This document shows, piece by piece, positions 20,546 to 24,691 of a stretch of DNA of 26,422 nucleotides (within the stretch, counting starts at the first letter, position 1; each line of letters begins with the position of its first letter). Source of the DNA: a virus. Location: positions 1 to 26,422 of the IMG/VR virus record IMGVR_UViG_3300048903_000083. One strand, 5' to 3'. Made by a program: the position numbers and the translations under genes. The notes beneath the pieces were generated by a model. It saw only the letters and a program-made list of their open reading frames with translations. It did no database searches and had not been told where the DNA came from.

Positions 20546-21967
20546 TTACGGGGTTGTCACAGTACCGGCAGTATACCCCGGCGTGAAGGCCGAACCGGCT
20601 TCGACGCGCGCGAGGAACGCCTGATTCAGGATGATCGAGCCGTAGAACACCTTCCACGACACGACACGCGTCTGATTCAGCGGGTCCGACTTGTCAGCAC
20701 CCGTCAGGTAATGGAATTCCGGGTTTTCGAGCAACACCTGACCGTACGAGTGGTTGCCGATAAAGATCGTCGGGAACACGCTGACGCCCGTTGCCGGTGC
20801 TGCCGGCGGTGTTTGCGCGACGCCGATACCCGTCAGCGTGACCGTCTGGTTAGGCGCGAGCTGCGTAGCCTGACCGGCCAGCGGGCCCGTGACCGGGACG
20901 CCGTTACCGATTGCCGTTGCCAGATTGCCAGGTGTGGCCGACGTGCCGATGTACACGTTGAACACGTAGTTCGGCACGTTCGGGATCACGACCGAAATCG
21001 AGCCCGTAGGGCCTGTAACGCTGATCGCGTTCGACACCTGGTAAATGATCTGTTCGACCGACGTTTGCGCGGGCGATGCCGTCACAATGATCTGGTAACC
21101 GGCGTTCGTGGCCAGCGTGCCGCCCGAAGCCGACGCCGTACCCTGAATGGCGGCTGCGCCCGTCCAGTAGGGCATCATGTTCGATTCAACGAAGCGCGCG
21201 CCGTTGAACGGGCCCAGTTCGTTGTTGTACAGGCGGTTCACGTCGCTGTACGACCACGCGTTCACAACCGTGGTGTTCTCGCGCATGTCTTGCGCCGACA
21301 GCGGATGGATCAGCGCAACGTAATGCTGCATGACAGCCGGCGACTTCGACGGATCGCGATACGCGCCCGCTTCGATCATCATGTCTTCGCGTTCGTCGCC
21401 CATGAAGCGCGGGACGCCATACGTGAGGAACGAACCAACGATGCGGTTCGTCTCGTGCGGGGTCATCACGTCGGTTGCGAGCAGGTTCGCGCGCGATGCC
21501 TTGCCGTTCGCGTAGTTCACCTGCGTGGTCGCCAGAAGCGTGTTGAACGTGTTGCGTTCCAGCGTTTCCGGCAGTTGCAGGCCAACCAGTTCGCAGGCTT
21601 GCTGGAACAGCGGATGCTTGATGGTCAGGTTCGCCACGTCCGTGATAATCACGCGGTCGCCCCATTGCTGCGCGGTCGCGCTGACCTGTTGCAGCGTCAT
21701 CGCTTCGCCGGGGGGCGCAACGCCTTCCTGCAATGGCGCGAACGGCAGCGGCAGACGCTGGTAGCGCGAAGCCGTGTACGTCGTACCGCGATTCGTGTCC
21801 AGCTTCAGCGGTTTGCCGAACTGGTACGCGACCAGCTGGCGGCGCGCGAGCGGCTCGACTTCTTCCTGAATGTACGCTTCAACGTCCGCCGTAAAGCTGG
21901 TGGACTGGTTGGTAACGCCCGGGAACAGCGAGGCCCACAAGAGGCCCAGTTTCTTGAGGTATTTCAT
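20546..21967 (-). CDS. Major capsid protein (N4-gp56 type) with inserted beta domain
   Basis: ATG 21967 (GAAGAGGA upstream; longer upstream frame has no ribosome site) gives 473 residues. The core shows the N4-gp56-type signature: ADVEAYIQEEVEPLARRQLV, GDRVIITDVANLTIKHPL, QLPETLERNTFNTLL and VNYANGKASRANL, plus the end VSWKVFYGSIILNQAFLARV. Residues about 278-395 (YQIIVTASPAQTSVEQIIYQ, NYVFNVYIGTS, APNQTVTLTG) look like an inserted Ig/FN3-like domain absent from smaller relatives. The first 18 residues (MKYLKKLGLL, WASLFPGV) resemble the starts of the scaffold and the 169-residue protein, suggesting a shared leader. Confidence 0.9.
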   Translation of the reverse strand: MKYLKKLGLLWASLFPGVTNQSTSFTADVEAYIQEEVEPLARRQLVAYQFGKPLKLDTNRGTTYTASRYQRLPLPFAPLQEGVAPPGEAMTLQQVSATAQQWGDRVIITDVANLTIKHPLFQQACELVGLQLPETLERNTFNTLLATTQVNYANGKASRANLLATDVMTPHETNRIVGSFLTYGVPRFMGDEREDMMIEAGAYRDPSKSPAVMQHYVALIHPLSAQDMRENTTVVNAWSYSDVNRLYNNELGPFNGARFVESNMMPYWTGAAAIQGTASASGGTLATNAGYQIIVTASPAQTSVEQIIYQVSNAISVTGPTGSISVVIPNVPNYVFNVYIGTSATPGNLATAIGNGVPVTGPLAGQATQLAPNQTVTLTGIGVAQTPPAAPATGVSVFPTIFIGNHSYGQVLLENPEFHYLTGADKSDPLNQTRVVSWKVFYGSIILNQAFLARVEAGSAFTPGYTAGTVTTP

Positions 21968-21983
21968 GGTTTCCTCTTCGTGG

Positions 21984-22703
21984 TTAAATGTTCTGATTCT
22001 CAAGACGCGCGCGAAGCTTGTCTTTGTCCGAACGCCCTGAACGGGCAGGCACATCGCTGCGCACGCCCGCCGTCTTGCCCCGGTTGACTGCCGGCGCGGA
22101 ACTGGTTTTAGGCTTTGCCTTAAGCTTGCCTTCAGCAATGTCCTTACCGAGCATCCAGTAGTACACGTCTTCGCGCGAAGCCTGCTGCCCGCGCGAACGC
22201 GCCTTCTGCACTTCTTCCTCCACGCGCTCCGTGTACTTCGCGCGGCGCGGTTCGCTCGCGATCTTCGATTCGAAGCGCGTACGGTCCGACATGTCTTGCG
22301 CCTGGAACATCGCCTGTTGCGCCTGGCGTTGCGTGTCGCGCAGTGTGCGGTTCGCCTGAATCTGCCAGCGTTCCATCTCCGACGTGTCCGGATTGCGCAG
22401 ACGTTCTTCTTCGCGCTGATGCTCCGGGTCTACTGTGGGCTGACTCGAAAGCCGCGCCTCAGCAGCGAGGCGCCCCCGGCGCTCGACTTCAGCCTCCAGG
22501 CGAGCCAGACGCTCAGCAGAATCATCACGGCGCGAGGTCTGCCGGACAGGAGGATCGTCAGGCAGGTCATCAGCAGGCAGATCCAGATCATCATCGCTAT
22601 CGGGATCAGATGCAGGCAGGTCATCAGGAAGGGGATCATCGTCCGTTTCTCCGTCAATCCCCGGAAAAAGAAGGCCTAAGAGTTTTTTAAGCAGCTTGTT
22701 CAC
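21984..22703 (-). CDS. Scaffold-like acidic head protein
   Basis: GTG start at 22703, 6 bases after AAGGA, giving 239 residues. The N-terminus MNKLLKKLLGLLFPGIDGET is shared in pattern with the capsid. Next comes a very acidic low-complexity section (about 20-50; SDPDSDDDLDLPADDLPDD) encoded by tandem-like repeats, then a charged coiled-coil body (RLARLEAEVERRGRLAAEAR, QRQAQQAMFQAQDMSDRTRF) and a basic C-terminus (RSDKDKLRARLENQNI). Acidic N-part plus basic, helical C-terminus directly before the capsid gene is typical of phage scaffolding proteins. No protease motif is present. Confidence 0.75.
   Translation of the reverse strand: MNKLLKKLLGLLFPGIDGETDDDPLPDDLPASDPDSDDDLDLPADDLPDDPPVRQTSRRDDSAERLARLEAEVERRGRLAAEARLSSQPTVDPEHQREEERLRNPDTSEMERWQIQANRTLRDTQRQAQQAMFQAQDMSDRTRFESKIASEPRRAKYTERVEEEVQKARSRGQQASREDVYYWMLGKDIAEGKLKAKPKTSSAPAVNRGKTAGVRSDVPARSGRSDKDKLRARLENQNI
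22559..22627 (-). repeat. 15-bp direct repeats in the acidic part of the scaffold gene
   Basis: CAGGCAGGTCATCAG occurs at 22559-22573 and again at 22613-22627, encoding PDDLPA/ADDLPDD type units. The spacing is 54 bases (18 codons, in frame), so recombination would change the length of the acidic segment by 18 residues without a frameshift. Confidence 0.7.
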
Positions 22704-22712
22704 TTGGGTTCC

Positions 22713-23222
22713 TTACAGCAGCGTGAAGCCGCCGACATTCTGGATAGTCGCCGTGGGCGTCGCCGCGTTGGTGATTGTGACGATAAAGTCACGTGCGGTA
22801 GCCGTGGCAATCGTCATCGTGCCGCTCAGCGTCCAGCCTGCGGCGGTCGTGACCGTCACGGTTTGGCCCGTGCTATTCAGAATACGAAGGCCGACCGAAG
22901 AACCCGTAACGCCTTGCTGGGGCGTCAGCGTGGTGAGAAGAACAGCGACCGTAGGAAGTGTCAGCGCAACGCCGGCACCAGCCGCGCCCGTGAGAGATAG
23001 GACAGTCTCTTCCGCGCCCATGATCTGCGATTGCGTCGCCGTGAAGCTGGCTGTGTTAGTCGCAGTGTTGAATACCGTCGCCTGCCATGGGTTTTGCGAC
23101 AGGATCGCGTTGATCAGACTGATCTGGTCGGGCATCGAACCGTTGTCCGCGATTACGGGCACCTGGCCCTGGATCGACGGAAAGAGCGCGCCGATCAGGG
23201 CGCCGATACGGGTTTTCTTCAT
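22713..23222 (-). CDS. Head/decoration-like protein with LFPSI leader (169 aa)
   Basis: I use ATG 23222, which has GGGGA upstream; the longer frame to 23261 overlaps a promoter. The N-terminus MKKTRIGALIGALFPSIQGQ shares the leader pattern with capsid and scaffold. Then comes a polar section (PDQISLINAILSQNPWQATV) and a Thr/Val/Gly-rich beta body (VTVTTAAGWTLSGTMTIATA, FIVTITNAATPTATIQNVGG). Only Ala/Gly/Thr-rich strands are visible, similar to head decoration or fibre proteins. The family is not recognised. It is the first gene downstream of a minus-strand promoter. Confidence 0.7.
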   Translation of the reverse strand: MKKTRIGALIGALFPSIQGQVPVIADNGSMPDQISLINAILSQNPWQATVFNTATNTASFTATQSQIMGAEETVLSLTGAAGAGVALTLPTVAVLLTTLTPQQGVTGSSVGLRILNSTGQTVTVTTAAGWTLSGTMTIATATARDFIVTITNAATPTATIQNVGGFTLL

Positions 23223-23251: not shown

Positions 23252-23278
23252 TGTATAGCATTTATTGCAAAAAGTCAA
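23252..23278 (-). promoter_or_regulatory. Probable late promoter (extended -10)
   Basis: Reading the minus strand, TTGACT (23278-23273) lies 15 bases upstream of TATACA (23257-23252), which has TGC directly before it. The segment TTTTGCA...TGCTATA resembles the plus-strand promoters at 3387 and 9388. The predicted start is about 20-25 bases before ATG 23222. It would drive the 169-residue protein, scaffold and capsid. The -35/-10 spacing is short, so the extended -10 is the main support. Confidence 0.55.
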
Positions 23279-24363
23279 CGTACGCGTCGAGCGCGGATAA
23301 ACCCATCCGCCGTCAAGGTACTCACCGCAAAAGTTGCGTCTCCGATCAGGAAAACAGTCGTTGTTGACGCCAGGCTAAAACGGGTTACCGGGGAAGATAT
23401 AGCTTCCGCCGTTCCCGCCCCCGCAGGAATCTGCACCGAAAACTGTGTGAATGAACCTAAAGGCCCGAATGTGGCTGAGGTTGAACTAACCCCTGAAAGA
23501 AACCCGCTCATCGTCGTACTTGCCGAGGGGTTGTAACGCACGACCCCTGATACGTCCCAATCGCCTGCCGTCAGGCTGATGGATGCAATGTTCGTGACGG
23601 CACCGCTGCTTAGCGAAACGCCGGACGCCGTAGCCGTGACATACTCGCCCACGCTGCCCGCGTTCGCGTTATCGTTCGTCGTCGTCCCGACGATACCGGC
23701 GGTGCTCGACGGCGTAAAAGTTCCCGTGCTGCTAAGTGTCGTGAACGCTCCAGTACTCGCCGTCGTGTTGCCGATGGGTCCCGGCGTAGCGAAGCGCGCC
23801 GTGAATCCCGCGCCGCTAACCGCGCCGCTCGCTGCCAGGGTTGTGAAACTGCCCGTGCTAGGCGTCGTTGCGCCTACGGGAGTGTTGTTGATCGAACCGC
23901 CGGTGATCGTCGGGTTGTTCCCGAAAGCAGGGTCCGCGCCGGTCACGCCGAGCAGTACCTGACCGGTTGTTCCGGTTACGAAATTCGGTGCGCTGGAGCC
24001 CTCGCCTATAACCACCCCGTGCGCCGTCAAGGCGTTAAGCCCGGTCCCGCCGCTCGTCACGGCTACGGGAGTCGTGGCTGTGAGCGTCGTGAAAGCGCCC
24101 GTTGACGGCGTAGTTGCGCCGACCGTCGCTCCGTTGATTGTGCCGCTCGCGATATGCGAACCGGTAACAGTCGGGTTCGGATACGTGCCAGATAGATCGC
24201 CGCCCGCCGGCCCGCTAGGCGGTTCCGGCGTACCAACGATAGTGTTTAGCGCAATCGTTGTCTGCTGCGCAAGCGAGTTGATAGCGGCCTGCACTTCTTC
24301 AGGCGGCACATCGGTGCCCGCGCTGCGCACGGGGTAGGGAATAATCCGGAATGTGTCAGCCAT
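23275..24363 (-). CDS. Repeat-containing fibre protein in the head module
   Basis: A 362-residue protein with ATG 24363 overlapping the end of the peptidase gene. The N-terminus (MADTFRIIPYPVRSAGTDVP, then VQAAINSLAQQTTIALNTIV) resembles that of the 167-residue neighbour, suggesting a common virion-anchoring segment. A GDLSGTYPNPTV region follows, then three copies of a (V/I)GxTTPSTGAFTTL-like unit, a feature of trimeric phage fibres. The C-terminal third (about 230-362) is a beta domain (SISLTAGDWDVSGVVRYNPS, VQIPAGAGTAEA) with a C-terminal strand ending in ARRVR. Its place between portal and capsid genes suggests a head fibre or decoration rather than a tail fibre. Confidence 0.72.
   Translation of the reverse strand: MADTFRIIPYPVRSAGTDVPPEEVQAAINSLAQQTTIALNTIVGTPEPPSGPAGGDLSGTYPNPTVTGSHIASGTINGATVGATTPSTGAFTTLTATTPVAVTSGGTGLNALTAHGVVIGEGSSAPNFVTGTTGQVLLGVTGADPAFGNNPTITGGSINNTPVGATTPSTGSFTTLAASGAVSGAGFTARFATPGPIGNTTASTGAFTTLSSTGTFTPSSTAGIVGTTTNDNANAGSVGEYVTATASGVSLSSGAVTNIASISLTAGDWDVSGVVRYNPSASTTMSGFLSGVSSTSATFGPLGSFTQFSVQIPAGAGTAEAISSPVTRFSLASTTTVFLIGDATFAVSTLTADGFIRARRVR
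23733..24125 (-). repeat. Three copies of a STGAFTTL-type protein repeat
   Basis: Coded copies lie at about 24083-24125 (VGATTPSTGAFTTL), 23838-23880 (VGATTPSTGSFTTL) and 23733-23778 (IGNTTASTGAFTTL). Spacing is uneven, so it is a dispersed repeat in the fibre shaft and not a simple tandem array. The similarity is clearer at protein than DNA level. Confidence 0.7.
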
Positions 24364-24691
24364 GGAGTGCCCTTAACCGTTTGCTTATCGATGGGCGTCC
24401 GCCGGGGCAGTGCATCAGCAGGTACGTTACCAGGCCGGGCCCGTAACCGCATGCCTTCGCGTACTGGTCTGCCTCCAGTTCCTGCGCTTCGCACATCGCG
24501 AAAAACTTCTCAGTCTGAAAGAACGCGCGCAGCGTCAGGAACCACAGAATCCTGGTGCGCACGTGCTTGTGATGCAGATGTCCGCGCTCGTGCGCCAGAA
24601 TCGCGTTCTGCTCAAAGCGCGACAGAACGTCGAACTGGTCGCCCGTCTGTATTGTGCCCCACGGCGTCACGCGTGCGCAGAAGTCTTTCAT
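24356..24691 (-). CDS. Small HExxH zinc metallopeptidase (M48-like)
   Basis: ATG 24691 overlaps the upstream stop (ATGA) after a G-rich site; an ATG at 24706 has no ribosome site. The 111-residue protein contains LAHERGHLHHKH (H34-E35-x-x-H38), the zinc-binding pair and catalytic Glu of gluzincins, and AQELEADQYAKAC with E73 as likely third ligand (M48/M56-type EADxYA). A hydrophobic segment between them (TRILWFLTLRAFF) may be a membrane-facing helix or the family's usual core helix. It encodes only a minimal catalytic core. Location within the head module makes prohead or virion protein processing possible, but host targets are equally possible. Confidence 0.8.
   Translation of the reverse strand: MKDFCARVTPWGTIQTGDQFDVLSRFEQNAILAHERGHLHHKHVRTRILWFLTLRAFFQTEKFFAMCEAQELEADQYAKACGYGPGLVTYLLMHCPGGRPSISKRLRALHG

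Follow-up and report, generated by a model that had tools for sequence, protein, structure and literature searches.

The window, the whole 26,422-base stretch of DNA analysed here, is an IMG/VR virus record. Its head genes, all on the minus strand, run from a connector-like protein through a 167-aa protein, the M48-like peptidase, the tail-fibre-like protein and the third protein to the putative scaffold and the capsid (Table 1). The capsid protein matches phrog_1357 (major head protein, E=3.4e-42) and, at a level under the Pfam cutoff, PF25209 (Phage_capsid_4, E=9e-5). The protein called scaffold has zero matches in Pfam or PHROG, and its identity is putative, being based on its position directly before the capsid, its size and the acidic tract at its N-terminus; a homology search with this protein and the third protein against named phages gave no match. 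The third protein matches phrog_673 (head protein, E=3e-5), and its structure model (pLDDT 84.5) shows a beta-rich domain. Since the best match of this model in the PDB is the capsid spike of Pseudomonas phage Pa223 (9ny6; E=7e-4, TMq 0.42), the third protein is probably a head decoration or spike protein, an assignment that is likely but not certain. The tail-fibre-like protein, upstream of the third protein, starts with MADTF in the window; in six relatives (L030, L053, L054, L070, L071 and L072) it opens instead with a signal-peptide-like stretch, MKKxxxxLLxLxxxALAQ-x-YPSPTY.

Table 1 Features of the head block in the window
Feature	Position	Strand	Description
Major capsid protein gene	20546..21967	-	473 aa; N4-gp56/P22-like HK97-fold family; read 21967-20546, MKYLKKLGLLWASLFPGVTNQSTSF
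Capsid leader	21914..21967	-	MKYLKKLGLLWASLFPGV; kept in leader-bearing relatives, absent in leaderless ones
Putative scaffolding protein gene	21984..22703	-	239 aa; GTG start; acidic after the leader; read 22703-21984, MNKLLKKLLGLLFPGIDGETDDD
Scaffold leader	22656..22703	-	MNKLLKKLLGLLFPGI; co-varies with the capsid leader
Third protein gene	22713..23222	-	169 aa; beta-rich; read 23222-22713, MKKTRIGALIGALFPSIQGQ
Third-protein leader	23172..23222	-	MKKTRIGALIGALFPSI; conserved in an alignment of relatives
Tail-fibre-like protein	23275..24363	-	Lies between the peptidase and third-protein genes; match to phrog_11393 (tail fiber, E=6e-17)
M48-like zinc peptidase	24356..24691	-	111 aa; HERGH...QELEAD; candidate leader-processing protease

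A leader on capsid, scaffold and third protein

The three proteins begin with a leader of ~12-20 residues that is hydrophobic and weakly basic and whose last residues read [F/L]x[P/L][G/A][V/I]; in the structure model of the third protein, residues 2-13 form a helix, though with low confidence. A strict regular expression was too narrow a description of the leader, recovering the capsid only, and a position-specific scoring matrix (PSSM) was used instead, trained on 35 third-protein leaders from relatives only, with the window's own sequence left out. Over 150 open reading frames (ORFs) of the window, the third protein (25.2), the scaffold (25.0) and the capsid (11.4) took ranks 1-3, the best score among the other 147 being 5.6 (background mean -4.9, SD 5.8). 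The same three genes held the top three ranks in all six relatives scanned, and the leader is thus specific to capsid, scaffold and third protein within the clade. The tail-fibre-like protein, which lacks a leader and gives no score with the matrix, serves as an internal control. At shared residues the same codon is used at a rate of 0.325 within a genome and 0.354 between genomes; because the rate is no higher within than between, gene conversion is not supported as the cause of the resemblance.

Relatives were gathered by five capsid-based scans of IMG/VR and one scan of GTDB genomes, together with searches that started from the scaffold and the third protein. The integrated copies with named hosts lie in Paraburkholderia species, and the leader is kept on all three proteins across these prophages and environmental relatives: every capsid with a QEEVE-type N-terminal region carries it, as do nearly all of the adjoining scaffolds. 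The last five or six residues form the conserved part of the leader, and its first half is free to vary. The motif is weakened or the pattern broken in the third protein of L133 (as called), the third protein of L216 and the scaffold of L251, and L174 is mixed; gene starts were assigned automatically, using start codons and ribosome-binding sites, and some of these calls are wrong, that of the L133 third protein possibly among them. In five close relatives of the window (L010, L012, L013, L014 and L083) the capsid leader is interrupted by a 32-codon in-frame insertion, LLWA-LTLQTIISFFVNYHKRDSGRTWTLMAYRQLPMY-LFPGV; the insertion offers a possible internal start, MAYRQLPMYLFPGV, and LFPGV is retained.

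More distant relatives, with ~50-60% capsid identity to the window, and the L129 group have no capsid leader. Their capsids start with MAVNQSSSF, MTTAVNYQATF or MGQTNQSSTF, where leader-bearing capsids read ...LFPGVTNQSTSF, and this start maps to about G17/V18 of the window capsid, near the residue that follows the leader. Their scaffolds are homologous and stand at the same gene position (E 1e-11 to 1e-28, with a profile built without the leader), and begin directly at the acidic tract. In these outgroups the leader is missing from capsid and scaffold together, and because homologues of both proteins start after the leader position, it can be regarded as an added N-terminal module.

Concerted drift of the motif

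Some leader-bearing genomes carry LFPG on every tagged protein, and in others the leader ends have drifted together. Those of L145 are FLTLGV on the capsid, FLTLGI on the scaffold and FLSLGL, YLSLGV, FLRLGI and RLFHIG on four further proteins; those of L176 are FLTLGV, FLTLGA and AFSLGA, those of L220 LFRPGV, ILRPAV, IFRPAA and FFRPLI, and those of L246 LFPAV, LFPKA, LFPSL and LFPRI. L258 has LFPRV, LFPQV, VWPRV and FLYPAI, yet in the capsid core it shares 86-88% identity with FLTLG-type relatives. An inserted gene of another kind within the block of L220 and L293 (LALCIPS.../IALCVPS...) has no leader. Such a leaderless insert (LALCIPSTGEWKADFGYSLVQ...) is seen in L220, L293, L301, L302 and L304, inside the decoration block between the third protein and an upstream leader-bearing gene, and has the look, judged by eye only, of a glycosyltransferase type.

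Among the 50 genomes left after thinning at 75% scaffold identity, the motifs of capsid and scaffold resemble each other more within a genome than between permuted genomes (p=2e-4), and the same holds in the 27 non-LFP genomes alone. As related genomes are not independent, disjoint pairs of nearest relatives were also contrasted: the motif was closer to that of its own partner in 15 pairs and to that of the other in 3, with 6 ties (sign p=0.0038, Wilcoxon p=0.0009). These figures come from a corrected run, in which the trimming of L022, L276, L293 and L336 was fixed after the first result was known, and in which the L258 capsid is mis-trimmed (LFPRVVNTS), its contrast being positive either way; the first run was also positive (13 versus 5, Wilcoxon p=0.006). 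The simplest reading of this concerted drift, for which gene conversion has no support as a cause, is one trans-acting reader of the leader. That the proteins share a functional signal, and that one factor recognises it on all of them, is near certain.

The earlier note on this DNA had described the same N-terminal leader on three consecutive head proteins, with codons that differ and so speak against recent DNA duplication; the cross-protein test with the scoring matrix confirms the first statement, and the same-codon rates support the second. Its view of the leader as a shared functional peptide is strongly supported by conservation on three proteins, by joint presence and absence and by joint drift of the motif. 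The result that it gave as a refutation, relatives with the same genes but no motif on at least two of the three proteins, is not seen inside the clade; outside the clade, capsid and scaffold both lack the leader.

An M48-like zinc peptidase in the head block

Within the head block, between the connector-like and third-protein genes, lies a gene for a small protein that matches the Pfam M48 family (PF01435, 27.5 bits; cutoff 20.3) and itself carries no leader. PF01435 matches 36 of its 41 divergent members at E<=0.01. Across these 41 homologues, whose mean column identity is 28%, the residues of the HExxH and ExxAD zinc signature (H34, E35, H38, E71, A74 and D75) are invariant, the pattern expected of what would be an active zinc peptidase. 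The best solved relatives found with the peptidase profile are Ste24p and ZMPSTE24 (E 1e-7). The structure model (pLDDT 95.7) leads to the same proteins, ZMPSTE24 and Ste24p being the top Foldseek matches with a probability of up to 1.00 and a TMq of about 0.65, at a best E of 0.075, which is weak. In L145, L220 and L276 the segment between HExxH and ExxAD is strongly hydrophobic (KRILLLIVFPFCIFAY) and could be a binding site for the leader or for a membrane.

The peptidase was found in all 49 distinct leader-bearing loci that have at least 6 kb upstream: in 44 by motif, in four more by a hidden Markov model (HMM) and in the last (L265) in the full record. It may lie several kb from the capsid gene, the distance reaching about 8 kb in L265. 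With the same HMM applied to whole or partial records, several of them fragments, the peptidase was present in all 20 leader-bearing records and in 0 of the 20 leaderless ones, the latter including two named phages with distant capsids. A clean M48 HMM run over the leaderless loci gave zero matches; M48 matches in L132, L195, L223 and L236, which came from an HMM contaminated by frame shadows, have no HExxH and were rejected. Leader similarity follows peptidase identity when capsid and scaffold identity are controlled for (partial r=0.35, permutation p=0.001; 0.45 without the scaffold control), although relatedness is not fully removed in such Mantel-type tests. An M48 lead from a thaumarchaeal element (PMC6563490) proved unrelated to head maturation.

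Proposed leader processing and known systems

We propose that the leader is a head-assembly signal on capsid, scaffold and at least one virion-like protein, and that the single trans-acting factor reading it on all tagged proteins would be the M48-like (HExxH...ExxAD) zinc peptidase of the same block. The leaders would gather capsid, scaffold and decoration-like proteins in the prohead, either at a membrane or by helix-helix contacts with one another. After that the peptidase would trim the leaders, during or after prohead assembly, and may set the timing of scaffold release and maturation. The cut would fall near the G|V bond, at about LFPG|VTNQ for the capsid and LFPG|IDGE for the scaffold; its placement at FPG|V is suggested by the start of leaderless capsids at about G17/V18. 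Cleavage, its site, its timing and the M48-like protein as the enzyme are what we infer from the sequence patterns: removal of the leader by proteolysis appears likely, and its performance by the M48-like protein probable. Taken as a whole, a cleavable head-assembly leader processed by a phage M48-like peptidase is the reading that we favour with fair confidence. All leader-bearing phages found belong to one capsid clade, so that leader and peptidase may have been acquired together once and co-inherited since. It also counts against this reading that the peptidase has no leader of its own to take it into the prohead, and that some members break the pattern.

The earlier note had named a co-assembly tag, tethering and a cleavable leader as possible roles. 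A functional peptide is borne out, whereas tag and cleavable leader are not separated directly; the co-occurring peptidase favours the cleavable leader. The strongest alternative is nevertheless an uncleaved co-assembly or membrane-docking helix that joins capsid, scaffold and decoration protein, the M48-like protein working elsewhere, for instance in lysis or on another target. Hydrophobic, basic N-termini would suit docking to a membrane or between helices, the scaffold leader of Staphylococcus aureus phage 80alpha is required for assembly while its cleavage is not (PMC5744158), and a peptidase gene may be as distant from the capsid gene as it is in L265. Such a helix leaves unexplained why the peptidase is present in all leader-bearing loci tested and absent from leaderless ones, and why leader similarity correlates with peptidase identity, and we regard it as unlikely, though to be taken seriously.

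Far less probable is removal of the leader by a host protease, with the phage peptidase unrelated to it, for which 80alpha again provides the precedent, a host enzyme, Prp, cutting both capsid and scaffold (PMC5744158, PMC9405229). The strong simultaneous drift on all proteins between related phages fits a phage-borne partner more easily, the peptidase co-occurs with the leader, and the LQFFA motif of Prp is absent: the leaders end in LFPG or FLxLG instead of LQ(F/L)F|A, and the three window leaders contain no LQFF. It is very improbable that signal peptidase I removes the leaders as ordinary Sec signal peptides. Some variants do look alike, such as MKKIFHILCAFLTLGVVNAAAG in L145, and a typical signal peptide opens the tail-fibre-like protein of some relatives (MKKILALLLFVSTVALAQ), but the window residues before the predicted junction are F-P-G and not small-x-small, and capsid and scaffold act in the cytoplasm. 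Equally improbable is a chance resemblance, for which it counts that hydrophobic N-termini are common and the leaders short, or copying by recent gene conversion, both being contradicted by the matrix, permutation, sister-pair and codon tests and by the joint absence in outgroups.

If leader processing by the M48-like peptidase is correct, an M48-type zinc peptidase would join the kinds of enzyme that act in phage head maturation, a protease class that would be new if shown; a limited open-access literature search found no report of an M48 prohead protease. A wider claim, which we consider probable if a little less firmly held than processing itself, is that a minimal phage M48-type zinc peptidase constitutes a new class of capsid-maturation protease, co-evolving with one hydrophobic leader on capsid, scaffold and several decoration-like proteins, and that together they would form a transplantable module for head assembly and processing. 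These phages would also offer a natural series of cases where a single signal, carried by several unrelated proteins, shifts in concert with its likely reader, making testable the role of the leader before cleavage, the gathering of capsid, scaffold and decoration proteins, and the protease residues that set specificity. The leader could double as a head-targeting tag, and the sequence rule of a leader with an adjacent HExxH gene would help to find head proteins, including decoration proteins that have no database matches.

The closest known system is that of 80alpha, in which capsid and scaffold share an N-terminal motif and lose 13 and 14 residues to the host cysteine protease Prp (PMC5744158, PMC9405229). 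Here, too, one N-terminal motif stands on capsid and scaffold. However, the 80alpha motif is LKxNLQxF|A, whereas the present leader is hydrophobic and ends in LFPG or FLxLG. Prp is host-encoded and of the cysteine type (MEROPS C108), whereas the candidate here is phage-encoded and M48-like. The 80alpha motif recurs on ribosomal protein L27; the present leader recurs on a decoration-like protein, and relatives carry it on further proteins. A distant relative, the human faecal phage L123 (MT836150.1, 4972-5950 and 5967 onward), has a different shared leader on the scaffold MKKELLKKLHTHMFD and the capsid MNRDYLKKLHTQMFD, and the L124 capsid starts with MEMNLQMFA; these sequences resemble the Prp motif.

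In phage T4, the head proteins, capsid protein included, are cut by one phage protease, gp21, which is of the serine type and has a different site. The T4 capsid targeting sequence (CTS) is a common N-terminal peptide that directs several head-internal proteins into the scaffolding core (PMC3012670). It resembles the present leader in being common to several head proteins, but it is found on internal proteins and not on the shell protein, whereas here the capsid is tagged as well; the two would not be expected to be related in sequence. In phage P1, 30 N-terminal residues of DarB suffice to bring a reporter into the capsid (PMC9024508); this is an analogous head-targeting peptide, but on one protein, a motif shared with capsid and scaffold not being described, and P1 carries a conventional predicted prohead protease. 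With the M48 enzymes Ste24p/ZMPSTE24 and HtpX, the window peptidase has in common the HExxH...ExxAD signature, and it may share the fold of their catalytic core, to which the structure search points at weak E-values; unlike them, it is a protein of ~111 aa that lacks further domains and has its gene in the head block of a phage. The statement of the earlier note that such a leader is not known from described phages was therefore wrong, given 80alpha (PMC5744158, PMC9405229) and the T4 CTS (PMC3012670). A leader shared by capsid and scaffold was known already; what is new is the motif, the number of tagged proteins and a phage zinc peptidase as the candidate enzyme.
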